The translations under genes and the position numbers were made by a program. A stretch of DNA of 64,000 bases from Streptomyces ferrugineus (GTDB taxonomy: Bacteria > Actinomycetota > Actinomycetes > Streptomycetales > Streptomycetaceae). The stretch lies in the NCBI RefSeq assembly GCF_015160855.1, contig NZ_CP063373.1:620001-684000 (forward strand), written 5' to 3'. Positions 30,019 through 41,915 of this stretch are shown in pieces. Under the pieces are notes generated by a model. That model saw only the letters and a list, made by a program, of their open reading frames with translations, was not told the origin of the DNA and did not search any database. Numbering within the stretch: the stretch's first letter is position 1; each line of letters starts with the position of its first letter.

Positions 30019-30092
30019 GCCTCACCCTTCCCCGGCAGGACCGCGCGCTCACATCAACTGGGCGGCCGGGGGGTGCTCCAGCGCGGCGTACG

Positions 30093-30617
30093 TCAGCTCT
30101 TGACGGCCTCTGCGATCTGCCGGGCGGCCTCGGCGGGCGTGAGGTGCGTGGTGTCGATGACCTCGGCCTCGTCGTGCAGCCATGTGCGGGCCGCCTCGGC
30201 GTAGGGCTCCAGGTACTTGAGGCGGAAGGAGGAGTTCGGGCCGACAACGGTGTCTTCCGCGATGCGCCCGCGCAGGGTGTCCTGGTCGGCGTGGAGGACG
30301 AAGTGCCGTACCGGGATGGCATGGTGGGCGAGGCCCGCGCTGATCTCGCGCCAGTACTGCTCGACCAGGACGGTCATGGGCACCACCAGAGTGCCGCCGG
30401 TGTAGTCGAGTACGCGCCGGGCCGTCTCGACCACGAGCGGCCGCCATGGAGGCCAGTGCTGGAAGTTGTCCGTCCCGGGCAGCCCCGGCTTGATGTCCAT
30501 GAGTGTCTCGCCGACCTTCTCGGCGTCGAATACCCGTGAATCCGGGAGGAGCCGCTGCACGAGCGGACTGGTCGTCGTCTTGCCCGCGCCGTGGGTGCCG
30601 TTGAGCCATACGATCAC
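30093..30617 (-). CDS. TmrB-like P-loop ATP-binding protein
   Basis: A 174-residue P-loop protein: VIVWLNGTHGAGKTTT at the start is Walker A; VFDAEKVGE, FQHWPPWRPLVVETARRVL and LVVPMTVLVEQYWREI follow in the same order as in Bacillus TmrB, the ATP-binding tunicamycin-resistance protein. Small kinases of the AAA_33 or zeta type are an alternative. The GTG start puts the P-loop near the N-terminus as in TmrB. An open frame extends upstream but lacks a credible start or motif. Confidence 0.75.
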   Translation of the reverse strand: MIVWLNGTHGAGKTTTSPLVQRLLPDSRVFDAEKVGETLMDIKPGLPGTDNFQHWPPWRPLVVETARRVLDYTGGTLVVPMTVLVEQYWREISAGLAHHAIPVRHFVLHADQDTLRGRIAEDTVVGPNSSFRLKYLEPYAEAARTWLHDEAEVIDTTHLTPAEAARQIAEAVKS

Positions 30618-30979
30618 GGAACCCGAGGCTAGCGCTGTGCGGGCCGTGGGAACGGGCACGGCGGAAATCCGATACGGCGGCTGCGGCGTTTCCCGGACGG
30701 TGTCAGCCGGGCCGAGCAGGGCGTCGCCGTCGGCCGTGCCGCCGTGGCGGAAGGCCGTCGAGGACGCGGCGGGCTCTCGCCGGGCAGGCGGGCCGTGTCC
30801 TGCGCCGTTCCGGGCCAGCACCTCAACCGGTGCGCCGGTCGCGTGACGTCGCGCGGCCAACTGCTGCGCACAGGCGCGGGCGAAGGTTCGCTCGCTCTGC
30901 TCGTACCGGCCATGGATCGCCGCGGATCGCCACGGCCCGTCACCTGGCCCGGCGGCTGCCAGGTGGGTCGTCCAGCGGG
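30618..30979. other. Gap without a recognisable gene next to the IS element
   Basis: About 360 bases with codon-like GC pattern on the minus strand in frame with the TmrB-like gene (for example RYEQSERTFARACAQQLAARR), but no start, domain or ribosome site that I can support. It may be the remnant of a gene broken before or by the IS insertion. Confidence 0.3.
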
Positions 30980-30985
30980 ACTAGG

Positions 30986-32066
30986 TGTACCCGGTCATGA
31001 CTTTGGTGACAGTCGGCTGATTGGTGGCTGGCCGCCGAGCGCGGTGTGTCGGCGGCCAGTGTTGTAGAACTGCAGCCAGGGTGCGAGTGCGTCGGCGCGT
31101 TCGGTGTTGCTGGCAAAGACCTGGTGGTAGGCCCATTCGGCCTGCAGGGTGCGGTTGAAGCGTTCGACCTTGCCGTTGGTCCATGGGCAGTGGGGCCGGG
31201 TGAACTTCTGCTGTGCGCCCAGGGTTTGGCAGGCGTCGCGGAAGGAGCCGGAGGTGCGGTAGTTGCGGGCGTTGTCGGTCATCACGCGCTCGATGCGGGC
31301 GATGCCGTGGCCGGCGAAGAACGCGGCCGCGCGGGTGAGGAACGCGGCGCAGGTGACGCCTTTCTCGTCGGCCAGGATTTCGGCGTAGGCCAGGCGGGAG
31401 TGGTCGTCCACGGCGGCGTGCACGTAGTCGTAGCCGATGCCGCGGCCGCGGACGTCCTCGCTGCGGCCGTGGGCGCGCCAGCCGCCGCCGTCGGGGATTT
31501 TGCCGAGCTTCTTCACGTCCACGTGGACCAGGCCGCCTGGCTGGTTGTACTCGTAGCGTGCGGCGCTTTTGCGCACCGCCCGGATGACCTGCCCGGTGAG
31601 CGGGTCGCAGGCTGCCAGGGGCGGCATGTGGTGGCGGCGCAGGATCCGGGTCACGGTCCGGGCCGGAACCCCGGTGGCCTCGCTGATCTGCTCGGGTCCC
31701 CGGCGCAGGCGTCGGCGGGCCTGAAGAACACGCTCCTCGACCTCGGCCGGCGTGCGTGTGGGGCAGGTGCGGGGGCGGCTGGAGCGATCGTGCAGCCCCG
31801 GCCAGCCCTCGACCCGATAGCGATTGACCCAGCGGTGAGCACACTGCCGGGAGACTCCCAGTTCCTTGGCGACGTGCGCGACCGGGCGCCGGTCGAAGAC
31901 AACGCGACGCACCAGCAGGCATCTGCCGTGAAAGGTCAGCCGGGCATTAGCGTGGGCCACCAGGACCTCCGAGGTGAGTGAAGACGGCAATCTCCACTAC
32001 GCCCGGAGGTCCCTCCATGATCAACAACCGGTAGCGGGCGTGTCACCAACCTCCCGGCCGAGTACA
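30986..32066 (-). mobile_element. Complete IS481-family insertion sequence, 1081 bp
   Basis: The element has 26-base terminal inverted repeats at 30986-31011 and 32041-32066, both starting TGTAC and with 20 of 26 positions identical. It is flanked by the exact 6-base direct repeat ACTAGG (30980-30985 and 32067-32072), matching the NCTAGN target preference known for IS481. The single transposase gene is intact, so it looks like a recent, possibly active insertion. Confidence 0.9.
30995..31990 (-). CDS. IS481-family transposase
   Basis: A 331-residue DDE transposase. Residues ~10-110 are helix-turn-helix domains (VAKELGVSRQCAHRWVNRYRVEG; ISEATGVPARTVTRILRR). The catalytic core has the three acidic residues in HVDVKKLGKI, VMTDNARNYRT and WTNGKVERFNRTLQ. 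It is full length with no frameshift. It starts 50 bases inside the right terminal repeat and ends just before the inner end of the left one, as expected for a compact IS. Confidence 0.95.
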   Translation of the reverse strand: MPSSLTSEVLVAHANARLTFHGRCLLVRRVVFDRRPVAHVAKELGVSRQCAHRWVNRYRVEGWPGLHDRSSRPRTCPTRTPAEVEERVLQARRRLRRGPEQISEATGVPARTVTRILRRHHMPPLAACDPLTGQVIRAVRKSAARYEYNQPGGLVHVDVKKLGKIPDGGGWRAHGRSEDVRGRGIGYDYVHAAVDDHSRLAYAEILADEKGVTCAAFLTRAAAFFAGHGIARIERVMTDNARNYRTSGSFRDACQTLGAQQKFTRPHCPWTNGKVERFNRTLQAEWAYHQVFASNTERADALAPWLQFYNTGRRHTALGGQPPISRLSPKS

Positions 32067-32250
32067 ACTAGGGCAGCGGGTGTCCGCGCCAGGTCCACGA
32101 CAGGGGCACGGGCGTGACCACCACGTCCACGCGCGGCTCGTGCACCTCGGTGAGCGGCGCCGTCCCGGCATCCTCGGGCACCCCGAGGATGGCGACGCGT
32201 CCGGCCCCGCGAGCTCGCGGCAACCCCACGACCGCGACGAGCGTCTCCAG
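32067..32250 (-). pseudogene. Possible remnant of a LacI-type sensor domain
   Basis: On the minus strand the sequence RVAILGVPEDAGTAPLTEVHEPRVD resembles the end of LacI-family ligand domains (VAVVGFDD...PPLTTVRQP). No DNA-binding domain or good start is present, and the frame ends at the TAG within the IS target site. The reading is tentative; it could also be a short unrelated gene. Confidence 0.25.
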
Positions 32251-32296
32251 CGGCACCTCGCAGATCCCCTCCGGTCGCGCCGGCCCACCCGTGCCG

Positions 32297-32905
32297 TCAG
32301 CCGTGCGTGCGGAAGATCCGGTCGAGGTGGTGGTCCAGGACCGCGGCGGCGTACTCCGGGCTGCGCTGGCCGACGAGGATGCTGGTGCCCAGGCCCGCGG
32401 ACATGGCAAGCAGGCTGACTGCTTCCAACCGCGTGTCCAGACCGGGGTCGAGCAGACCCGCCTCTCGCGCCTGCTGGAGGAGTCCGGCCACGGCGTCCTC
32501 GGCGGCGTCCGGGTTCTTGATGAAGGGCTGGGCGGCGAGGGCCGGGTCGTTGACGGAGAGGACCGCGTACGAGGTGTAGAGGTGGTGGAAGGTGCGGCTC
32601 TCCTCGTCGGTCGGCAGGGCCGCCATCAGCACTGCCTCCACCGTCGCGCGCGGGCCCGGGCTGTCCCCGGCGGCGCGGACGCGGGCGGAGACCCGTTCCC
32701 TGAATCTCTCCGTCAGCTGCTCCAAGCCGAAGAGCAGCAACTTCTCTTTCGTCTCGAAGTAGTACTGCACGAGCCGCAGTGACACACCCGCCTCCGCGGC
32801 CACGTCGCGCATCCCCACGGCGTGCAGGCCGCGCCGCCCGGCGACGCGGACGAGCGCCTCGGCGATCTGGGTGCGCCGTTCCGCGTGATCCACGCGCTTG
32901 GGCAT
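32297..32905 (-). CDS. TetR-family transcriptional regulator
   Basis: A 202-residue repressor. The helix-turn-helix lies at residues ~10-58 (RRTQIAEALVRVAGRRGLHAVGMRDVAAEAGVSLRLVQYYFETKEKLL). The C-terminal domain (TFHHLYTSYAVLSVNDPALAAQPFI) is of the TetR_C_6/BetI-like type. The ATG with AAAGGACC upstream was chosen. It diverges from an alpha/beta hydrolase gene; two near-identical 16-base palindromes in the gap are its likely operators. Confidence 0.9.
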   Translation of the reverse strand: MPKRVDHAERRTQIAEALVRVAGRRGLHAVGMRDVAAEAGVSLRLVQYYFETKEKLLLFGLEQLTERFRERVSARVRAAGDSPGPRATVEAVLMAALPTDEESRTFHHLYTSYAVLSVNDPALAAQPFIKNPDAAEDAVAGLLQQAREAGLLDPGLDTRLEAVSLLAMSAGLGTSILVGQRSPEYAAAVLDHHLDRIFRTHG

Positions 32906-32945
32906 CGTCCGGTCCTTTGCTCCTAGGGCTCCTGGAAGCTTTTGA

Positions 32946-32995
32946 TGATACAGCCGTACCAGGTCTCGCGAGCTTTTCATGGTACGTTCGTATCA
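32946..32995. promoter_or_regulatory. Twin TGRTAC-N4-GTAYCA operators
   Basis: TGATACAGCCGTACCA (32946-32961) and TGGTACGTTCGTATCA (32980-32995) are each imperfect palindromes of the form TGRTAC-N4-GTAYCA and are near mirror images of one another, 34 bases centre to centre. They lie between the divergent TetR and hydrolase starts, so one regulator can govern both promoters. Confidence 0.75.
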
Positions 32996-33019
32996 CGAAA
33001 CCGAGCCCCGGAGGTGGCC

Positions 33020-33931
33020 GTGCCCGAGACCACTGCGCGTACCCAGGCCGATGTCGGCCGCTATGTGAGCGACGCCTGGCGTGAGCGTTACTTCGCGGCC
33101 TGCGACGCGGTCTACGCGCTGGGCGCACCGGCCCTCGCGGAACAGGACGTGGAGACCTCTTTCGGCACCACCCACGTGTACCGCTACGGCCCCGCCGAGC
33201 CGGCGGCCCAGTCCCGCACCCCGGTCGTACTGGTCCATGGGGCGGGCTCCTGCTCCGCCATCTGGTACCCGAACACCCCCGACCTCAGCGCCGAGCGCCC
33301 TGTCTACGCCCTCGACACCCCCGGGGACCCCGGACGCAGCGTCCAGCGCGCCCCGCTTCACCGGCCCGAGCACGCCGCGCAGTGGCTTGAGGAGACACTC
33401 GCCGGGCTCGGCCTCGACCGCGTCCACCTTGTCGGCACGTCCTACGGCGGCTGGCTCGCGCTGAACCAGGCGCACCGCAGGCCGGACCGCCTCGCCTCGG
33501 TCACCCTGCTCGACCCCGGTGGCCTGGAGAAGGTGGGGCCGCGCTTCTTCGTCTGGCTGTTCGTCAGCCTCTTCGCGACCTTCGCGCCCAAGGCGCTGCG
33601 TCCGCGCCTCGCGGCCTGGCTGGAGCAGCCGGTCCTCGTCATGCCGGAGCTGCGCACCATGATCAGGACGGCTGTGCGTGCCTTCCGCATCCGCCGCCCG
33701 TCTCCGCTGCCCCTGTCCGAAGACGAACTCTCCACCATCCGCACCCCGCTCTACCTGGTACTCGGCAAGCGCAGCCTCTTGCTGCACCCGCACCGGCAAG
33801 TGGAGCGCGTGCCCCGCCTGATACCGGGCGCCCGCGCCGAGATCGTCTCCGGCACCGGCCACGGCCCACAGATCGACCACGCGAAGGAGACCAACCGCCG
33901 GATGCTGGACTTCATGGCCTCCGTCGACTGA
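33020..33931 (+). CDS. Alpha/beta hydrolase under TetR control
   Basis: A 303-residue alpha/beta hydrolase. LVHGAGSCSAIWYPN is the oxyanion region, GTSYGGWLA the nucleophile elbow, VLGKRSLLLHP the acidic segment and GTGHGPQID the catalytic His. The GTG at 33020 has GGAGG five bases upstream. No signal peptide. Divergence from the TetR gene with shared operators suggests induction by the regulator's ligand, possibly an ester or lactone the enzyme hydrolyses; this is inference. Confidence 0.87.
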   Translation: MPETTARTQADVGRYVSDAWRERYFAACDAVYALGAPALAEQDVETSFGTTHVYRYGPAEPAAQSRTPVVLVHGAGSCSAIWYPNTPDLSAERPVYALDTPGDPGRSVQRAPLHRPEHAAQWLEETLAGLGLDRVHLVGTSYGGWLALNQAHRRPDRLASVTLLDPGGLEKVGPRFFVWLFVSLFATFAPKALRPRLAAWLEQPVLVMPELRTMIRTAVRAFRIRRPSPLPLSEDELSTIRTPLYLVLGKRSLLLHPHRQVERVPRLIPGARAEIVSGTGHGPQIDHAKETNRRMLDFMASVD

Positions 33932-34141
33932 GGGACGACGGGCGACGCCCCTTCCCGGAAGTTCCCGGCGGCGTTCGGAGCCGTTCTGCTCGGATCGCGC
34001 CTCGGCGATGGTGATGGCTTTGCGGGAGCAGGGGTCCAGGCGATGCGCTCGGCCGCTTGGGAGGCGCCCGTGCTCAGCCGGGTGCCGAACGACCCGTGGC
34101 TCAGTGCTTGAGTCGGCCCCGCTCGGCGGTGGCCGGCTCTC

Positions 34142-34990
34142 TCACCCGTGTGCCGATAGGACGTCGCGGAGAGTGAGGGGGAGGCGGCCGGTCAGCTGGG
34201 TGTAGTCGTTGCGCACTCGATCCCAGCGCTGCTCGCGCACCGAGGCGAACATGGACGAAAAGGCGTAGAGCCACCAGGGATCCAGGCCGGTCGCCGCCGT
34301 CTCGGCACAGTACGTGTCAGCCGGGATGTCCACGTAGGCGACAGGCGTCTCCCACGCCTCCGCCGTGATCGAGGCGATGCCTGCCAGGTCCACCGACTCG
34401 GGTCCCGTGATGTCATGGTGACGACCGGTCGGCTCACCCAGCGCGAGTGCGGCGAGGGCGCGCGCCACGTCGTCGCGCGCCACCAGGGAGACCCGGCCAT
34501 CCGCTGCCGGAAGCCTCAGCAGCCCGGTCGCACGCGCCTCGGTGAGCCAGCTCCGGAAGAACTCCATGTACAGCGAAGCCCTGGCGAACGAGCATGGCAC
34601 GCCGGAGGCCAGAAGCAGATCCTCGGTGAGCCGGTTGACCACCGCGTAGCAGAACGGGGACGCCGGGTCGGCGTCGACGCTGCTCAGCGCCGCGACATGA
34701 CCGACGCGCTCAGCCGCCGCAGCGGCGACGACGTTGCGGTGGTGCAGCAGCACCCGGGCATCGGGCCCGTCACTGGAGATGAAGACCAGCACGTCCACGC
34801 CCTTCAGCGCCGCACGCAGAGCGGGCAGATCGGCGTAGTCGGCAACGGCGACCTCCACCTGCGGCGGCAACGCGTCCGCAGGCGGCTTCCGCCTGGTCAT
34901 CGCTACCACGTCCACGTCGGCCCGGCCCGCGAGCAACCGCACCACCCGCCCGCCCAGGCTGCCAGCCGCCCCCGTCACCGCGATGCGCAT
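34142..34990 (-). CDS. NmrA-like NAD(P)-binding protein
   Basis: A 282-residue atypical short-chain dehydrogenase. The nucleotide loop is VTGAAGSLGGRVVRLL with AMTRRKPP after strand 2. The active-site Tyr/Lys pair of classical SDRs is not evident, which fits NmrA/QOR2-like proteins (redox sensors or quinone reductases). The start MRIAVTG is the usual one; a longer form starting at GTG is possible. Its upstream region ends at the left end of the Tn7-like element, which begins about 70 bases before the start codon. Confidence 0.85.
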   Translation of the reverse strand: MRIAVTGAAGSLGGRVVRLLAGRADVDVVAMTRRKPPADALPPQVEVAVADYADLPALRAALKGVDVLVFISSDGPDARVLLHHRNVVAAAAAERVGHVAALSSVDADPASPFCYAVVNRLTEDLLLASGVPCSFARASLYMEFFRSWLTEARATGLLRLPAADGRVSLVARDDVARALAALALGEPTGRHHDITGPESVDLAGIASITAEAWETPVAYVDIPADTYCAETAATGLDPWWLYAFSSMFASVREQRWDRVRNDYTQLTGRLPLTLRDVLSAHG

Positions 34991-35060
34991 CGTCGCCCCC
35001 GTCGCCTTGTCGTCAGTCACACAACCGTAGGCAGTCAGGCGCGGCAGCGGCACGGCCCAG

Positions 35061-35160
35061 TGTCCCGTCTCGCTGAAGTTGAGGCAGGGCAGCGCTCTGA
35101 CCTGGGGTGCTTCAGGCTGAGCGAGACGTTGGATATTCGTCGGTCTCGCTCAAACTGAGG
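35061..35160. repeat. Left transposon end with three transposase-type repeats
   Basis: Repeat copies at 35066-35087 (CGTCTCGCTGAAGTTGAGGCAG read as terminal), 35117-35128 (CTGAGCGAGACG) and 35142-35160 (GGTCTCGCTCAAACTGAGG). The gap from here to the methyltransferase stop holds no gene I can recognise. Confidence 0.65.
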
Positions 35161-35318
35161 GATTCCGTCACGAGCCCCTGGGCTTGTGAGCAGGAGGAAA
35201 CCTTGCTGGCCCTGCAAAGGTTCCTCGCTCTCGTCGGATGTGCGGACCATCTGAGCCCAAGACGCTGGCTTGCTCATCAGGTGTTGACGTGTTCAGGGGA
35301 CACGGACTGCTGGCTGAG

Positions 35319-35963
35319 CTAGGGCTGACTGTGTGCGAAGAGGACCGCCCCTGGAACGCTCTCGTCGAGGTCGAGGAGCATGTGGGCCTCGACCGTGAAG
35401 CCAGCATCGCGAAGCCAGGTTGTCACTTGATCAGGTTGGCGGCGGTGGACGTAAACGTTCATCGGGTGACCGCCGTAGCCCTGCGTCTTCAGCCTCGACT
35501 CGTCACCGACGTGGAAGCCGACCAGCAGTTGTCCACCAGGGCGTAGCACCCGGTGGAAGTGGCTGAAGACCGTGGGCACGGCATCGTCGGGGACGTGTAT
35601 CAACGACCAGAAGGCGAGCAGGCCGGCGAGCGAAGCGTCTGCGAGGTGGAGATCCGTCATCGAGCCGACTTCGAACCGCAGGCTGGGGTGGTCGCGCCGA
35701 GCGAGGTCGATCATCGCGGGTGAAAGATCGATGCCGAACGCGTCCACGCCCAGCTCGTGCAGGTGAGCGGTGACGTGTCCAGGTCCGCAGCCCACGTCCG
35801 CCACCGGCCCGCCGCTGGTGGCGTGCACCAACTCGGCGAACAATGCCAGAGCTGCTCGAAGGTAGGGCTCCCCGGCCAGAGCCTCGCGCAGCTGGTCGGC
35901 ATAGCTGACCGCGACCGTGTCGTAGGACGCGCGGGTGTCTGCTAACCACTGGTCCGTGTTCAT
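35319..35963 (-). CDS. Class I SAM-dependent methyltransferase, transposon cargo
   Basis: A 214-residue methyltransferase. The SAM loop is VADVGCGPGHVTAHL (motif I, residues ~53-67), FGIDLSPAMI follows strand 2, and FWSLIHVPDDAV and LRPGGQLLVGFHV are later motifs. The substrate is not predictable. It is the only non-transposition gene inside the element, placed near the left end. Third-position GC looks a little lower than in flanking core genes, consistent with transfer. It could serve resistance or be an anti-restriction gene, but nothing in the sequence decides this. Confidence 0.85.
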   Translation of the reverse strand: MNTDQWLADTRASYDTVAVSYADQLREALAGEPYLRAALALFAELVHATSGGPVADVGCGPGHVTAHLHELGVDAFGIDLSPAMIDLARRDHPSLRFEVGSMTDLHLADASLAGLLAFWSLIHVPDDAVPTVFSHFHRVLRPGGQLLVGFHVGDESRLKTQGYGGHPMNVYVHRRQPDQVTTWLRDAGFTVEAHMLLDLDESVPGAVLFAHSQP

Positions 35964-36110
35964 GCCTCGACACAGTAGCCCCAGTGATCAGGATGTCGTG
36001 CAGAGTCGGTGTGACGGATGATCACCGCTGACGAACCCGAACAAGTCCGTGAGGTCCTTTCGTCCCTGACGCCGGACAGGTAGCGCCTCGACCTTCGACC
36101 GCGTGGTGTT

Positions 36111-37112
36111 TCACCGTGCATGAGAGGGGGTGTGTCGCAGAAGTCTGCGCATGATGAGTGGAGGCCACCACTCTGGCGTGCCGGGTGCAGCCGACGCCAC
36201 CCGCATCAGTTGACGTTCCTGTTCGTCCATCCGTTCATTGATCCTTTCCGCGACCCGTGTGATTTCGCTTGTGAACCATGGGATGGCGGTCGTTCTCAGC
36301 CGTCGTTCGGGAGGCAACCGCCGCTCGAACTCTCGGTGAAAGAGCTGAACATCGCGGGGGCTGCCGAGAGCTCGGTGGCGCCAGACCGGAGACGCGTAGA
36401 TCCCCAGGACTTCGACGAGGTCTGGCAGGAGAGCGGCCTCGCGCATTGCGTAACTTCGGCGAGCAAGGGGCTTGTTGGGAGCGATGAGGTCGAGAAGGCG
36501 TTCGGTCCTGTTGACGGCATATCCGTGCTTGGCCAGCTCGCGCCAGAAGTCGACGCATTCCTGGTAGGCAGCGAGAACCCTTCGGGGTGTCCGCCGTCGA
36601 AAGAGCCGATGGAGTCTCCGCTGCGCATGGACGATCTCAGGGGCCCGGTTGAGGCTGAACTGTCCGTCGATGGGACCGGCGAAGTTGGCCATGTAGTGCC
36701 CGTGGTGGGTGCCCGTCCATCGGCGGTGTTTGACACAGAGGTGATGGTGTCCACTGATGACCCAGATTTCGACTTTCCAGTCGTCCTGTCCGGTGCGGGC
36801 CGCAACGCAGGGATGGCAGGCCCAGCTGCGGGCGAGACCTTCGTACTGCTCGTGGGGCCAGGGGCCTGGAGTGGCCAGCTCGGGCAATTTCCGCATCAGC
36901 AGAAGAGGGGCCTGCCCGCTGCGCGTGGCTAGGAGTTTCACGTTGTCTTGGGGCGATTCCGCTGTGTAGAAGCGGCGGAGTATGCGTTCGGGCGGCAGCC
37001 TGTTGAGCAGGGCGAGCCGTGCAATGTAGGATCGCAGGGTCTCGTTCGGGAAGGGGGTGGTGGTCAGGGGGAGCGGCCAGGCTGGTCCGTAGAGGTCCGC
37101 GGAGGGGGTCAT
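36111..37112 (-). CDS. TniQ/TnsD-type target-selection protein
   Basis: A 333-residue protein with the TniQ start pattern (WPLPLTTTPFPNETLRSYIARLALLN) and the following zinc-finger-like residues C-x2-C (WACHPCVA) and C-x2-H (HLCVKHRRW). TniQ proteins recruit the transposase to a chosen DNA site. There is no CRISPR effector near it. The start ATGA overlaps the stop of the TnsC-like gene, so it is the last gene in the transposition operon. The Arg/His-rich C-terminal half may bind DNA, possibly a specific target. Confidence 0.85.
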   Translation of the reverse strand: MTPSADLYGPAWPLPLTTTPFPNETLRSYIARLALLNRLPPERILRRFYTAESPQDNVKLLATRSGQAPLLLMRKLPELATPGPWPHEQYEGLARSWACHPCVAARTGQDDWKVEIWVISGHHHLCVKHRRWTGTHHGHYMANFAGPIDGQFSLNRAPEIVHAQRRLHRLFRRRTPRRVLAAYQECVDFWRELAKHGYAVNRTERLLDLIAPNKPLARRSYAMREAALLPDLVEVLGIYASPVWRHRALGSPRDVQLFHREFERRLPPERRLRTTAIPWFTSEITRVAERINERMDEQERQLMRVASAAPGTPEWWPPLIMRRLLRHTPSHAR

Positions 37113-38137
37113 GCCGATGTCCGGTAGGCGCTCTCGCTGGCGTGGTCGACGTGAATGGTGTGCAGCTGGCGGCGGGTGATCCGCTCGCTGCCGTCGAGGA
37201 TTGCCGAGATGGCGGCGGCCCGGATCAGGTGAGAGAGGCTGCCGATCATGCCGCCGGTGCGTTGGTGGAGGTAGGCGTGCAGCTTGGCCAGGGTTCCTGG
37301 AGTGTGGTGATGCAGGCGGAGGGTGTCCTCCATGGTCGCCACCAGCCCTTCCCACTCCGCTCCGGGCGGGAAGGGGCCGGTGTGCAGGAGTGTGCAGCGG
37401 CCAGCGATCTGGCCGCCCCGGATTCCGGTGAACAGCCCGGAATGCTCGACGTCGATGCCCGCATAGACGAATGTGGCGGGCAGGTGCTCGGTGAAGTACT
37501 TCAGATGGTCGGACAACTCCTCACCCGCGATGGTGGCGAGGTTCATCAGGTGGATCTCATCGACCAAGACGAGATCGGTGCGGGCCTCCGTAAGCACTTG
37601 GCAGACGGAGCTGGTGATGTCGGCGGTGTTGTGCCTGGGGGAAATGGTCGGCAGCTTGAGGAACCGGGCGAACTCCAGCGCGAGCTTGCGGGCCGAACCC
37701 TTGGGCGGGGCTGTCACATAGACCACCGGGATGCGCCGGCTGTCTCCGTAACGCTGCCGGATGCGAAGCTCGTGTAGGCGGCCGAGTTGCCGCAGTGCGG
37801 TGGTCTTCCCGGTGGTGCGCTCCCCGGAGATGATCAGGCCGCGGCGGGCGCCGTGCTCGCGCCGGTTCAGCAAGGTCAAAAGGCGCCCTTGGTGGGCGAC
37901 CTCTTTGACAGTGGAGGTGCGCACGACCTGGAGTTCGGAGTGGTAATCAATGCGGGCCTCGTCGTAGTCGGCGCGCGCTTCGTCGTCCATGGACTCCCAC
38001 TGCTTGGGCGGGGCGAGATCGAAGGTCGCGAGGTCCTTCTCGACGAAGCGGCGCCAGCCGCTCAGGGAGGTGGGCGGTTCGATCCGCTCGTCGTCGCCCG
38101 CCGGTGGTTCGCGTTCGTCGGGGGTGTTCACCGCCAT
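37109..38137 (-). CDS. TnsC/TniB-type AAA+ ATPase
   Basis: A 342-residue ATPase that links target recognition to the transposase. Walker A is GERTTGKT (residues 105-112), Walker B LVLVDEIHLMN; the rest follows TniB/TnsC (HLKYFTEHLPATFVYAGID, GMIGSLSHLIRAAAISAI). An N-terminal ~70-residue extension probably contacts the transposase. Its start overlaps the TnsB-like gene's stop by ten bases and its stop overlaps tniQ by four. Confidence 0.92.
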   Translation of the reverse strand: MAVNTPDEREPPAGDDERIEPPTSLSGWRRFVEKDLATFDLAPPKQWESMDDEARADYDEARIDYHSELQVVRTSTVKEVAHQGRLLTLLNRREHGARRGLIISGERTTGKTTALRQLGRLHELRIRQRYGDSRRIPVVYVTAPPKGSARKLALEFARFLKLPTISPRHNTADITSSVCQVLTEARTDLVLVDEIHLMNLATIAGEELSDHLKYFTEHLPATFVYAGIDVEHSGLFTGIRGGQIAGRCTLLHTGPFPPGAEWEGLVATMEDTLRLHHHTPGTLAKLHAYLHQRTGGMIGSLSHLIRAAAISAILDGSERITRRQLHTIHVDHASESAYRTSA

Positions 38138-40251
38138 CGTTTTGCCTCCTCACGGGCGTCGAAGATGCCCAGTGGCACCACCTTGGCCACCTCCTCGTTC
38201 TCCTCGGCGGCTTCGGGATCCGGGTCCGGTTCGGGCTGGGGTGCCTGGTTGGCCGCCGGCAGTTCGGGACGGGGCCAAGTGGTGGTGCTCGTGGCACGGG
38301 TGCGGGCGGCGACCTTGCGGTCGCGCCGGTTGACCGCCCGGCGCCTGCCCTTGCTCTGGCCTGCGGACCGCTCGGCTCCGCCTTCGGGACCGTCGGCCGC
38401 GCGGTCCAACAGCTTGACGGCGGCCTGTGCGACTTCCTCCTCGTGCGGTCGGCGTCGTTCGCGTTCGGTCAGTACTTGGTGGGCTCGGTCGAAGACCAAC
38501 TCGCCCATCGGGACCGGAGAAGTGCGCAGGTGGCGCCAGGTCGTGGTGATCCACCCTTGGCCGCGGTGGTTGCGTACCCAGACGCAGGAGATGTCGTAGG
38601 GGTCGTAGTGGACTTCCCATCTCTTGCCGTCCGGCCCTGCCCCCGAGGGCTGTCTCCGGTAGGGTCTGAGTTCGCGGGCGTCGTAGGTTCGGTTGTTGAT
38701 CCGCACCCCGCCGGCGCCGATGACCCGCCACTCGCGCGGCATGAGCTTGATGTACTCCTCTGGGCTGAGTGCGACTGGGACGTATCCGGCCGCCGACACC
38801 AGCGCGGCGTACTTCTCGTTCGGAGTCAGCGGACGGTCCGGCATCAGCGGGTCGCGCAGTCCGTCATGGGGCCTGGTCTGCCAGATGGCGACGACCCATT
38901 CCTGCAAGAGTTCCTGGAGTTCGTGGATGGACCAGGCTGCCTGCGCGGCCGGGTCTTTGCCGCGCGTCTCCGCGCTGCGGCCGGTGTAGCCGGCCACGTA
39001 CTGGGCGAACATCGTCGCCACCGAGCCCAGCGTTCGCTCGACGTGCGGTTTGTCAGTCGGGGTGTCCGGGTGCGCGGGCTGGAACGAAATCCCCAGGTGG
39101 CGGCAGGCGTTGCGGAAGTTGTCCGAGATGTATGCCTTGCCGCGGTCGCTGACCACTGTCTCCGGGACGATCACTGGTTTCGCGGCGGCCTGGGCCAGCC
39201 GCTCGTCCAGCGGCAGCAGTGAGGTGTAGGGCAGCACCGAGCGTGACATGCGCAAAGCGTCCGACCAGCCCGGCCGCATCGGCTCCGGCGTCATCGCGCG
39301 CGCCAGCAGGAGCGCGGCGTCCACCGCCTTCGTCGACGGCCGCAGCACCACCGCCGTCAGTGTCCTGGTGGCCACGTCCACCAGCCCAGTCAGCTCGCAG
39401 CGGTCCACCTTGCCGTCGTCGTGGATCACCATGATGTCCAGCGGCGTGGAGTCGATCTCCATGACCTCGCCCGGCCGGGCCGCTGTCAGCTGTCCGAACA
39501 TCCGCTTCGGCTGCTTGCCCAGCGAGCGGCGAGTGCGTGCCGACCCCAGCAGATGCCGTCCCGTCGAAACCGCCTCCAGTAGCCGGTAGAACGCGGCCCG
39601 CGACGGCATCATCACCGCTCCGGCGCCGTGCTCGGCCGCCAGGAGCCGTTCGACCTTGCGCCGCAGCACCTGCGCGGACACCGTCGCCTCATCGGTCCGG
39701 CTGTTCACGACCTGCTCGATCGCGGCCACCACCCGCGGATCGGCCCGGCTCGTGCCGGTGGAGGGCTTGACCAGCCGCCGGTCCACCAGCCCCGCCACCC
39801 CCTCGCGCTCGAAACGGGTCCGCAACCGCTGAAGGGTGCTCAAAGACACCTCCTCACCGGCCTCGCGCAGCTCGGCGAGCTTGGCCAGCTCCCGCTGGCG
39901 CACCGAGTGCACCTCCGGGTCGTACTCGCGCCTCACGGTCGTGCCAGGAGTCGCGTCCGGGCGGCCCGTCATCAGCTCGGTCAGGTGCCGCTGCCACCAA
40001 AGGGCCCGCTCCGCCACCTCCTCGGGCAGCCCGTCCAGCACTCCCTCCTCGGGCAGCGGCGGCCGGGCCGGGCCGGTGCTGAGCACTGCGAAGCCCTCCG
40101 AAGCCAGCAGATGCCCGAGCAGCACGACGCTCGCCGCATGGGCGTCATCGACCAGGCGAACCGATGTGCCGTGCAGGGCGGCGACGGTGTGCTCACGCCC
40201 GTCGTAGTGGACCCGGTCACCCAGCGACAGCAGCCGCGGACGCGTCGACAT
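38128..40251 (-). CDS. TnsB/Mu-type DDE transposase
   Basis: A 707-residue transposase. An N-terminal SH3-like and helix-turn-helix region (LSTLQRLRTRFEREGVAGLVDRR) precedes the catalytic core with D267 (EIDSTPLD), D369 (VVSDRGKAY) and E405 (KPHVERTLG). The C-terminal ~120 residues are Arg/Glu/Pro-rich and likely unstructured, where TnsC contact is made in relatives. Length and motif order match TnsB of Tn7-like elements. Its start overlaps the TnsA-like gene by 35 bases. Confidence 0.94.
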   Translation of the reverse strand: MSTRPRLLSLGDRVHYDGREHTVAALHGTSVRLVDDAHAASVVLLGHLLASEGFAVLSTGPARPPLPEEGVLDGLPEEVAERALWWQRHLTELMTGRPDATPGTTVRREYDPEVHSVRQRELAKLAELREAGEEVSLSTLQRLRTRFEREGVAGLVDRRLVKPSTGTSRADPRVVAAIEQVVNSRTDEATVSAQVLRRKVERLLAAEHGAGAVMMPSRAAFYRLLEAVSTGRHLLGSARTRRSLGKQPKRMFGQLTAARPGEVMEIDSTPLDIMVIHDDGKVDRCELTGLVDVATRTLTAVVLRPSTKAVDAALLLARAMTPEPMRPGWSDALRMSRSVLPYTSLLPLDERLAQAAAKPVIVPETVVSDRGKAYISDNFRNACRHLGISFQPAHPDTPTDKPHVERTLGSVATMFAQYVAGYTGRSAETRGKDPAAQAAWSIHELQELLQEWVVAIWQTRPHDGLRDPLMPDRPLTPNEKYAALVSAAGYVPVALSPEEYIKLMPREWRVIGAGGVRINNRTYDARELRPYRRQPSGAGPDGKRWEVHYDPYDISCVWVRNHRGQGWITTTWRHLRTSPVPMGELVFDRAHQVLTERERRRPHEEEVAQAAVKLLDRAADGPEGGAERSAGQSKGRRRAVNRRDRKVAARTRATSTTTWPRPELPAANQAPQPEPDPDPEAAEENEEVAKVVPLGIFDAREEAKRWR

Positions 40252-40993
40252 CCCAGCCCACCCCCTTCACCGCCGCAGGCACCAGCCGCACCAGCGACGC
40301 GGCTGACAAGCGCTCCGTCCGCAGTTCCGTCGTCAACTCGTGGTGCCAGAGCAGGTGGTAGAGCACCGGCAGCACCGCGAGCGGATCACCGACCGCCCGA
40401 GCACCCGCCAGCAACCCCAGTGGCTCGCTGAACACCGCCCGCAGAGCGTCGGCCACTGGTTCCCGCCGCACTCTGGGATGCCGGTAGCCCGACAGCCACC
40501 GCAGGTTCGCCACCGACACCGGATCGAGCACTCCGAGCCGTTCATAGCCCCAGCCGACCCGGGGGCAGGCCGCAGCCGTCGCTGCGAACTTCGCCGCGTC
40601 CTCGGGCTCGATGCGCTCGTCCGGACGCACATCCAGCACCACGGCCGTGCCGTCCCGTCTGCGCACGAAGTAGTCCGGCGTGTGCCTGATCCGCCGACCC
40701 CGGCCGCCGTACCGCCACGACAGCCGGAACGGCTGTGAGGCCACCGCCACCACGTCCGGCTCGGCATCCAGCCGCATCAGGTGCCCGAGTTCCGCCCGGG
40801 ACTCGTAACCCACCAGCTCGGAGCAGGTTGCAGCCCAGTACCAGCCGGGGAAGTTCCGCTGCCCGCGGTACGACGGGAACGCACGCACCTGCCCGGCCGC
40901 CTCGAAAAGGGTCGGCCACATCACCTCAAGCGGCCCGCCATGCACCTCACCTCGGGCGTCGGTGTACTCCAGCCAGAATTCCTCCGCCTCCAC
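40217..40993 (-). CDS. TnsA-like endonuclease subunit of the transposase
   Basis: A 258-residue protein. The restriction-endonuclease-like active site can be read as E68 (ESRAELGHL), D107 (IRHTPDYFV) and D121-V-R123 (VVLDVRPDE), where typical TnsA has Q/E-x-K. TnsA cuts the 5' strand so that the element moves by cut-and-paste. The Lys-to-Arg change is seen in some actinobacterial relatives to my recollection, so activity is likely but unproven. GTG start; first gene of the operon. Confidence 0.82.
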   Translation of the reverse strand: MEAEEFWLEYTDARGEVHGGPLEVMWPTLFEAAGQVRAFPSYRGQRNFPGWYWAATCSELVGYESRAELGHLMRLDAEPDVVAVASQPFRLSWRYGGRGRRIRHTPDYFVRRRDGTAVVLDVRPDERIEPEDAAKFAATAAACPRVGWGYERLGVLDPVSVANLRWLSGYRHPRVRREPVADALRAVFSEPLGLLAGARAVGDPLAVLPVLYHLLWHHELTTELRTERLSAASLVRLVPAAVKGVGWDVDASAAAVAG

Positions 40994-41055
40994 CCGCCAC
41001 CCTCACTCGGCGCTGACCAGGTGGAACGACCGTAGGGGGCGCAAGAAGCCAGAAC

Positions 41056-41160
41056 CTCAGATTGATCGAGACGTCACACCAGATGCCCGAGATTGAGCGA
41101 GACGTGCGGGCGGATGCCTCACGATGACCGGGACTGCCTCAACTTCGCAGAGACAGGTCA
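41056..41160. repeat. Right transposon end with transposase-type repeats
   Basis: CTCAGATTGATCGAGACG (41056-41073) and CCGAGATTGAGCGAGACG (41087-41104) are near-identical direct repeats; the terminal inverted repeat follows at 41134-41160. The arrangement of several internal binding sites per end is typical for TnsB-type transposases. Confidence 0.65.
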
Positions 41161-41199
41161 CTCAGGCTCAACACGATGTCGACGTGTCGTGGCGCACTT

Positions 41200-41219
41200 T
41201 TGCAAGCAGGCGCTTGCAA
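41200..41219. promoter_or_regulatory. Perfect palindrome TTGCAAGC-AGGC-GCTTGCAA
   Basis: Eight-base arms with a four-base centre, ending 31 bases before the ATG of the XRE regulator gene, around its likely promoter. It is a strong candidate for autoregulation. The core TTGCAA repeats resemble Nur boxes, but the spacing is 8 instead of the 5 I recall for Nur. Confidence 0.6.
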
Positions 41220-41249
41220 TAGTTAGCGGAGATGCGGCAAGCTGGAGGC

Positions 41250-41915
41250 ATGGCATCGCTCAACGTCGGCAATCTCGGTGACTATCTGCGCGAGCAGCGG
41301 CGCAACGCGCAGCTGTCGTTGCGGCAGCTCGCCGATGCCGCCGGGGTGTCCAATCCGTATCTGAGCCAGATCGAGCGCGGGCTGCGCAAGCCGAGCGCGG
41401 AGGTGTTGCAGCAGGTCGCCAAGGCCCTGCGGATCTCCGCCGAGACGCTGTACGTCCGGGCCGGCATCCTCGACGCCGAGCGGGACCGTGACGAGGTGGA
41501 GACGCGCGCCGTCATCCTCGCCGATCCCACACTGAACGAGCGGCAGAAGCAGGTACTGCTCCAGATCTACGAGTCCTTCCGCAAGGAGAACGGGTTCGGG
41601 ATATCCCCCGAGGCGGAGGAGGCGGTGGCCGAGTCGGTCAAGGCCGTCGGGCTGGACCTGGACTCGCCGTCCCCGCCGAGCGACACCGAGGGCGCCGACA
41701 CGGCCGTACGCCGCAGCCGTACGCCCCGCGAGAGCGGCACGGATGCCGCGGAAGCCACGGCCGACGGCGGCCGTAAGTCTCCCGCACGCCGTACTCGCAC
41801 CACCCGCACCACCCGCAACACCGGAAAGACCCGCACCACCCGCACCACCCGTACGTCCGACGGCAGCGACGCCGACCCGGAGAACCCGACCGACCCCCAG
41901 CAGTCGGACGGCTGA
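41250..41915 (+). CDS. XRE-family helix-turn-helix regulator
   Basis: A 221-residue DNA-binding protein. The XRE domain is at residues ~5-65 (LGDYLREQRRNAQLSLRQLADAAGVSNPYLSQIERGLRKPSAEVLQQVAKAL); residues ~65-130 are conserved in Streptomyces orthologues (ILADPTLNERQKQVLLQIYESF). The tail is a low-complexity RTRTTRTTR stretch, probably a nonspecific DNA-binding arm. The ATG has GGAGG one base away, and a second ATG six codons upstream is possible. It begins about 90 bases from the transposon's right end and so kept its own promoter. Confidence 0.9.
   Translation: MASLNVGNLGDYLREQRRNAQLSLRQLADAAGVSNPYLSQIERGLRKPSAEVLQQVAKALRISAETLYVRAGILDAERDRDEVETRAVILADPTLNERQKQVLLQIYESFRKENGFGISPEAEEAVAESVKAVGLDLDSPSPPSDTEGADTAVRRSRTPRESGTDAAEATADGGRKSPARRTRTTRTTRNTGKTRTTRTTRTSDGSDADPENPTDPQQSDG

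Follow-up and report, generated by a model that had tools for sequence, protein, structure and literature searches.

A stretch of 64,000 nucleotides from the Streptomyces ferrugineus genome (hereafter the window; NZ_CP063373.1, positions 620,001 to 684,000) contains a compact Tn7-like transposon whose right end faces the gene for a helix-turn-helix (HTH) regulator. We consider it probable, at roughly 80%, that this element is steered to the HTH gene's promoter region by a small TniQ-like protein, acting either on its own or in a complex that includes it. Positions given below are those of the window unless another locus is named; the loci compared carry L numbers and the genomes G numbers. The features on which this reading turns are the following:

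35061..41160, minus strand: the whole Tn7-like element, 6,100 bp, its tips set by the inverted ends and by sister comparison
41200..41219: operator-like palindrome, TTGCAAGC-AGGC-GCTTGCAA, preceding the HTH gene
41250..41915, plus strand: host HTH (XRE-like) regulator gene (PF01381, E 4.5e-15)

The attachment site

For an unbiased count of associations between such elements and this gene, TnsA and the HTH gene were each searched in one set of 131 genomes from the genus, among them G020, which is identical in this region to the Streptomyces locus L006. The HTH gene was matched in all 131 and TnsA in 74, of which the 150 listed rows cover 71. Among the TnsA matches listed, 16 of 150 (in 15 genomes) are found upstream of the HTH gene at less than 6 kb (97-4,995 bp), where about 0.1 rows would be expected by chance (150 x 6 kb / 8 Mb), and every one of the 16 is divergent from the gene. 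Broken down by similarity to the window's TnsA, the site-associated rows among the matches listed comprise 5 of 5 long copies of at least 57% identity, 4 of 27 at 45-56%, none of the 49 long copies below 45%, and 7 of 69 fragments. When genome contigs were scanned with TnsA as the sole query, 22 loci came back, all from Streptomyces, and 17 of them contain the HTH gene. Both surveys agree with the first-pass annotation of this DNA, which had anticipated a chromosomal site for the element.

The region upstream of the HTH gene carries a conserved motif, GCTAAC-NN-TTGCAAGC-N3-5-GCTTGCA, which includes the palindrome that we regard as a probable operator. Motif and palindrome are present in relatives both with and without inserts, and the motif was found with at most two mismatches in 83 of 125 loci, many of the remainder being without the HTH gene. 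In 22 of the 28 site loci, the right tip of the element is recognisable and separated from the palindrome motif by 37-61 bp (median 49.5), a spacing that spans several TniQ types and two TnsABC groups. In the window, 40 bp separate the tip from the matched motif, which spans 41201-41227; the tip of L018 is about 42 bp away as judged by eye, and five of the 28 site loci (L064, L107, L017, L112 and L025) have no tip within this range. Members of the second TnsABC group (L074, L108 and L109), whose TnsB is about 47% identical to that of the window, show tip-like sequences 49-50 bp from the motif.

A related TnsABC subfamily occupies a different gene with the same geometry. A count by eye places TnsA upstream of the aconitase gene acnA, at 322-355 bp and in divergent orientation, in G003, G114 and G002 (loci L121, L118 and L123); in G101, a TnsA fragment about 690 bp upstream of acnA has the opposite orientation. 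The acnA upstream region is a second candidate attachment site in Streptomyces.

Other relatives are distributed differently. Genome G110 (L113-L116) holds at least four scattered TnsA copies with 51-55% identity, unlike the family bound to the HTH site. More distant TnsA relatives occur within about 30 kb of contig ends (G005:C1:5005, G136:C1:769, G114:C1:12232, G128:C1:20501 and 11306702, G118:C1:18846 and 7859750), some of them paired, with a match at each end, which would suit a location in the terminal inverted repeats of a linear chromosome.

The element, its candidate selector and its plasmid home

The ends and genes of the element are as follows:

35061..35165: left end with three TnsB-like sites from a matrix scan (35066-35086, plus; 35108-35128, minus; 35142-35162, plus)
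41053..41160: right end with four TnsB-like sites from the matrix scan (41135-41155, 41115-41135, 41084-41104 and 41053-41073, all minus)
40217..40993, minus strand: TnsA-like endonuclease, 258 amino acids, GTG start (NF033179, 292.6 bits, cut-off 110)
38128..40251, minus strand: TnsB, DDE transposase, 707 amino acids (PF09299, Mu-transpos_C, E 6.1e-10; PF00665, E 1.5e-7)
37109..38137, minus strand: TnsC, AAA+ ATPase, 342 amino acids (PF05621, TniB, E 1.2e-16)
36111..37112, minus strand: TniQ-like protein, candidate target selector, 333 amino acids (weak PF06527 match, homologue P0005, weak structure-model matches)
35319..35963, minus strand: cargo, class I S-adenosylmethionine-dependent methyltransferase, 214 amino acids (PF13649, E 3e-20)

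The first-pass annotation had described a TnsA-TnsB-TnsC-TniQ module of overlapping genes between inverted repeats, with internal repeats at both ends and a single cargo gene, and in all these respects it proved correct: the module is recovered by domain matches, and the element is bounded by 29-nt terminal inverted repeats with 83% complementarity. The extent proposed then (35056-41165) was right as to the element and 5 bp too long on each side, since comparison with sister elements places the left tip at 35061 and the right, tnsA-proximal tip at 41160. Arrays of TnsB sites at both ends, a hallmark of Tn7-like elements, are seen here as sequence repeats. The seven end repeats score 20.7-28.6, against a best score of 17.0 elsewhere in the window; six of the seven trained the matrix, and only the seventh (20.7) is independent of it. 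In TnsB, the PF09299 match is above its cut-off and that to PF00665 slightly below (32.1 bits, cut-off 32.6), and TnsC scores 61.1 bits on PF05621 (cut-off 22.4). This is an authentic, intact-looking Tn7-like transposon with an actinobacterial-type TnsA, and it may be active at present. The same genome contains a second, distant Tn7-like tnsA-tnsB-tnsC set (G000:C1:5206997-5209773; L002 and L003), with 35% identity to the window element in TnsA and 38-44% in TnsB.

Copies of the methyltransferase gene with 95% identity occur in sister elements L004 and L058; because the remaining sister elements have no match to it, we consider it cargo. PADLOC, run on eight cargo proteins, gave a single match, between the methyltransferase domain of the window cargo and the mad2 model. 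Methyltransferases 44-52% identical to the window cargo adjoin other Tn7-like units, at L108 11374-12042 (minus strand), L058 12126-12779 and L139 216-704.

Neither TnsD nor TnsE was recognised among the open reading frames of the element, which comprise tnsA, tnsB, tnsC, tniQ and the methyltransferase gene, and none of these five genes is cas-like. Inspection of 20 of 45 direct-repeat families, without a dedicated finder of clustered regularly interspaced short palindromic repeats (CRISPR), turned up no regularly spaced CRISPR array. Viewed across the open-reading-frame lists of sister elements (not a systematic comparison), no gene beyond TnsABC and TniQ was recognised as common to them, their cargo differing, and TniQ is therefore the best candidate for the selector.

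The assignment of this protein to the TniQ family is the weak point of our reading: it scores 18.7 bits on PF06527, below the cut-off of 27, and its family membership derives from homologue P0005, which carries PF06527 and is 52% identical over 98% of the window protein. A structure model gives weak TniQ/TnsD matches. A Foldseek search of the model against the PDB yielded no match at E <= 0.001, and a search of PDB sequences that started from an alignment of TniQ gave nothing significant (best E 0.88; the TniQ chain 8fcu_P at 1.1). The missing clear structural match for the C-terminal helical half of the model we would count as evidence neither way. Four residues (C99, C102, C126 and H129) are invariant across 21 sequences, and we read them as a putative zinc ribbon.

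Comparison among relatives suggests that TniQ is a variable module. The proteins of L005 are 87%, 87% and 85% identical to the window's TnsA, TnsB and TnsC and only 31% identical in TniQ, whereas those of L008 are 80%, 82% and 85% identical in TnsABC and 52% in TniQ. L005 is nearer to the window than L008 in TnsA and TnsB and yet farther from it in TniQ, a pattern that points to an exchange of tniQ between elements, as judged from pairwise identities rather than from a tree. At ten HTH-site loci, TniQ is 27-37% identical to that of the window and the TnsABC pieces are 58-87% identical. Conversely, a pair of TniQs 94% identical to each other occupies two different sites, i.e., the HTH site in L006 and a position beside a plasmid parA in L007. 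Direct recognition of the chromosomal site by TniQ, as suggested at first pass, is plausible yet unproven, because TniQ identity falls to 27% at one site and the 94% pair occupies two. We infer both the role of TniQ as selector and what exactly is recognised.

Locus L007 lies between parA and a TrwC-type relaxase gene, with no target duplication, and among the five loci of the TnsA scan that have no HTH gene it is the only one with both ends and all four genes recognised. Divergence of tnsA from parA recurs in NZ_CP108566 (L139) and NZ_CP120991 (L144), and the right tip lies upstream of parA, 59 bp (L007), 63 bp (L139) or 56 bp (L144) from its start codon (ATG). An insert-free plasmid, NZ_CP109253 (L149), aligns with L139 for 3,136 bp at 97.9% identity, and the alignment ends exactly one base before the tip; the homology of L144 to L150 ends about 10 bp short of it. 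L014 and plasmid L143 share one junction, upstream of a gene without a clear Pfam family. Their TnsA is broken and 91-95% identical to that of the window, and 35 bp separate the tip from the end of a further palindrome. Altogether, the 12 plasmid or plasmid-like loci (L007 and L138-L148) include three at parA and one (L143) at this other gene, and in the other eight (L138, L140, L141, L142, L145, L146, L147 and L148) no such parA adjoins tnsA. To judge from these loci, the family has both a chromosomal and a plasmid home. The upstream region of the HTH gene in L006 and those of the three parA genes share words of 7-8 nucleotides only.

A possible, though unlikely, alternative is guidance by a host factor: TniQ or TnsC may dock on a host DNA-binding protein seated at its own operator (the HTH regulator at the palindrome, ParA at its promoter) and not on a DNA sequence. 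The small size of TniQ (293-333 amino acids in full-length copies), the lack of a recognised element-encoded partner, the coexistence of strongly divergent TniQs at one site with one TniQ type at two, and the palindrome close to the tip of L014 and L143 all accord with such guidance. This alternative also presupposes that parA is autoregulated. The genes flanking the element are provisionally named Rv0474-like and HbhA-like, the HTH gene being the presumed counterpart of M. tuberculosis Rv0474. According to the available text of PMC10961391, Rv0474 represses its own transcription, and in the available text of PMC10293859 a small TniQ marks out elements that use further selectors. Against docking, L007 has no palindrome with arms of 6 bases or more within the 120 bp that precede its tip, the palindromes of L139 and L144 are found only 74-103 bp from the tip, and the product of the site gene in the related subfamily, aconitase, is not obviously a DNA-binding regulator. 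Of similarly low probability is a more specific form of this idea, in which a single small TniQ would steer the element to promoters bound by their own product, such as those of the autoregulated HTH gene and of parA, by docking on the host repressor-operator complex and not on sequence. If this were true, one selector would suffice for vertical as well as horizontal spread, and TniQ would be free to diverge or be swapped with the target unchanged.

The reading that we prefer, guidance by TniQ to the HTH gene's promoter region, extends beyond anatomy to a mechanism; beneath it lie the element, its ends, the conserved site, the orientation and spacing of insertions, the 5-bp duplications of sisters, the empty sites and the plasmid copies, all of which the sequences show. 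TnsA and TnsB would cut and join DNA, and TnsC would connect both to the target selector. The TniQ-like protein, alone or in a complex, would guide the element to the promoter region, and the right (tnsA) end would be placed facing the HTH gene, 37-61 bp (about 50 bp) beyond the palindrome, leaving gene and palindrome intact.

Target duplications, empty sites and the left flank

Among 16 end pairs, six are flanked by perfect 5-bp duplications (L005, L006, L010, L013, L015 and L018), two match at four of five bases (the window and L058), three have repeats of 18-25 bp (L004, L024 and L012), and five have no duplication (L007, L009, L011, L017 and L019). Because the 5-bp duplications differ between loci, they indicate separate insertions. 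The longer direct repeats are exact over 24 nt in L004 (9810-9833/16754-16777) and over 18 nt in L024 (1187-1204/5750-5767), and imperfect over about 25 nt in L012. We considered them as long target duplications and dropped this interpretation; a better explanation may be unequal recombination involving insertions that lay at different offsets within the HTH site.

The site occupied in L015 is found without its insert in two genomes: in G163 (L126), the flanks are joined gap-free with 398 of 416 nt identical, and G164 (L127) likewise has no insert, with a 40-base length difference. Both are true empty sites for the L015 element. No further empty site was found for eleven left flanks tried among the loci compared, and no clean empty site was obtained for the window element, whose nearest relative, G001 (L056), matches only to 41183 and then continues into other genes. 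Proof from empty sites rests, as a result, on sister L015 and plasmid L139. Of the comparisons proposed at first pass, that of sister insertion sites thus yielded a common position upstream of the HTH gene, and that with insert-free strains succeeded for L015 and failed for the window's own element, the duplication of which was not confirmed.

If the upstream region of the HTH gene were a passive hotspot that merely tolerates insertions, the relatives descending from a few old events with no targeting, we would understand why the region beyond the promoter varies between relatives and holds assorted genes, and why many copies have decayed (fragments make up 7 of the 16 site-associated rows). 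Such a history is improbable, however, given that all 16 listed site rows have a single orientation, that the tip spacing is so confined, that 5-bp duplications differ in sequence and in position, that empty sites exist, and that a second TnsABC group has its tips at the same place.

Insertion at a site that is preserved by the event also bears on the left side of the window element, which adjoins the remains of another:

30660..41160: whole inserted island, two Tn7-like units with intervening genes
34118..35051, minus strand: remnant of a second, related element, comprising an inner right end and a cargo gene (91.6% identity over 934 nt to L006 9034-9965)
34142-34992: NAD(P)-binding cargo gene in the remnant, similar to NmrA and short-chain dehydrogenases/reductases (PF13460)
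30995-31990: IS481-like transposase gene in the island (IS481-like domains)

The matching segment of L006 is the interior of the right end of that sister element together with its dehydrogenase/reductase-like gene. The island also holds an alpha/beta hydrolase gene. Since window positions 30085-30659 are 90% identical to the DNA just outside the left end of the L004 element, the chromosome resumes only near 30659. An uncomplicated single insertion at 35061-41160 flanked by a duplication CCCAG/CTCAG, as the first-pass annotation had it, is accordingly very improbable despite well-defined tips and agreement at four of five flanking bases, because the DNA on its left comes from inside another element's right end and is not original target sequence, which leaves the duplication unestablished.

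Tandem or nested units occur also in L009, L010 and L011. Because the site survives insertion, several elements can accumulate and decay there, leaving tandem units and remnants. In the arrays of these three loci and at window 34118-35051, the TniQ, TnsA or end type seems to vary from one unit to the next; in these four cases, this could reflect exclusion of like by like.

Comparison with known Tn7-like systems

By description rather than by a TnsB tree, and with its actinobacterial hosts, the window element can be set beside the second, Actinobacteria-dominated clade of Tn7-like elements, for which the available text of Benler et al. 2021 (PMC8649781) reports no experimentally characterised member and gives no attachment site. 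The sites named for Tn7-like elements in the available text of PMC11406308 are glmS, yhiN, comM, parE, guaC, yciA, ffs, rsmJ and tRNA genes, and neither the HTH gene nor parA is among them. No description of an attachment site upstream of the HTH gene was found in the literature searched, which omitted most subscription papers. The attachment site upstream of the HTH regulator is well supported and, as far as the literature searched shows, new; the transposon itself is of a known kind. An actinobacterial group of Tn7-like elements thereby acquires a defined site that is open to testing in Streptomyces, and a second one on plasmids, used with a single short TniQ. Because the chromosomal site lies upstream of a gene matched in 131 of 131 genomes, it might also serve for placing stable insertions in industrial actinomycetes.

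Elements of the Tn5053 type likewise have one TniQ and, in the available text of PMC11406308, no known second selector. Unlike them, the window element has TnsA, and its family targets a chromosomal upstream region and a plasmid parA region instead of resolution sites. The Tn6022/TnsF elements (Faure et al. 2023, available text of PMC10293859) share the short TniQ (369 amino acids there, 333 in the window); unlike in those elements, no gene of the window element fits tnsF (498 amino acids there) and the insertion is not in comM.

The resemblance to Tn7 itself extends to the TnsA/TnsB/TnsC core, the several TnsB sites, the 5-bp duplications in sisters, the right end facing the attachment gene, and a lifestyle that combines chromosome and plasmid. 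Tn7 encodes TnsABCDE and has its attachment site, attTn7, at glmS. The window element differs in that its flanking gene is the HTH regulator and its site the region upstream of that gene, in that a single TniQ-like protein of 333 amino acids stands where TnsD and TnsE were not recognised, and in that its spacing varies over 37-61 bp. Tn7 is described in the available text of PMC11406308 as following a two-pathway lifestyle. Two homes with one short TniQ are an unusual pattern, and the occurrence of one TniQ type at two sites, and of very different TniQs at one, makes recognition by short TniQs directly testable in this family.
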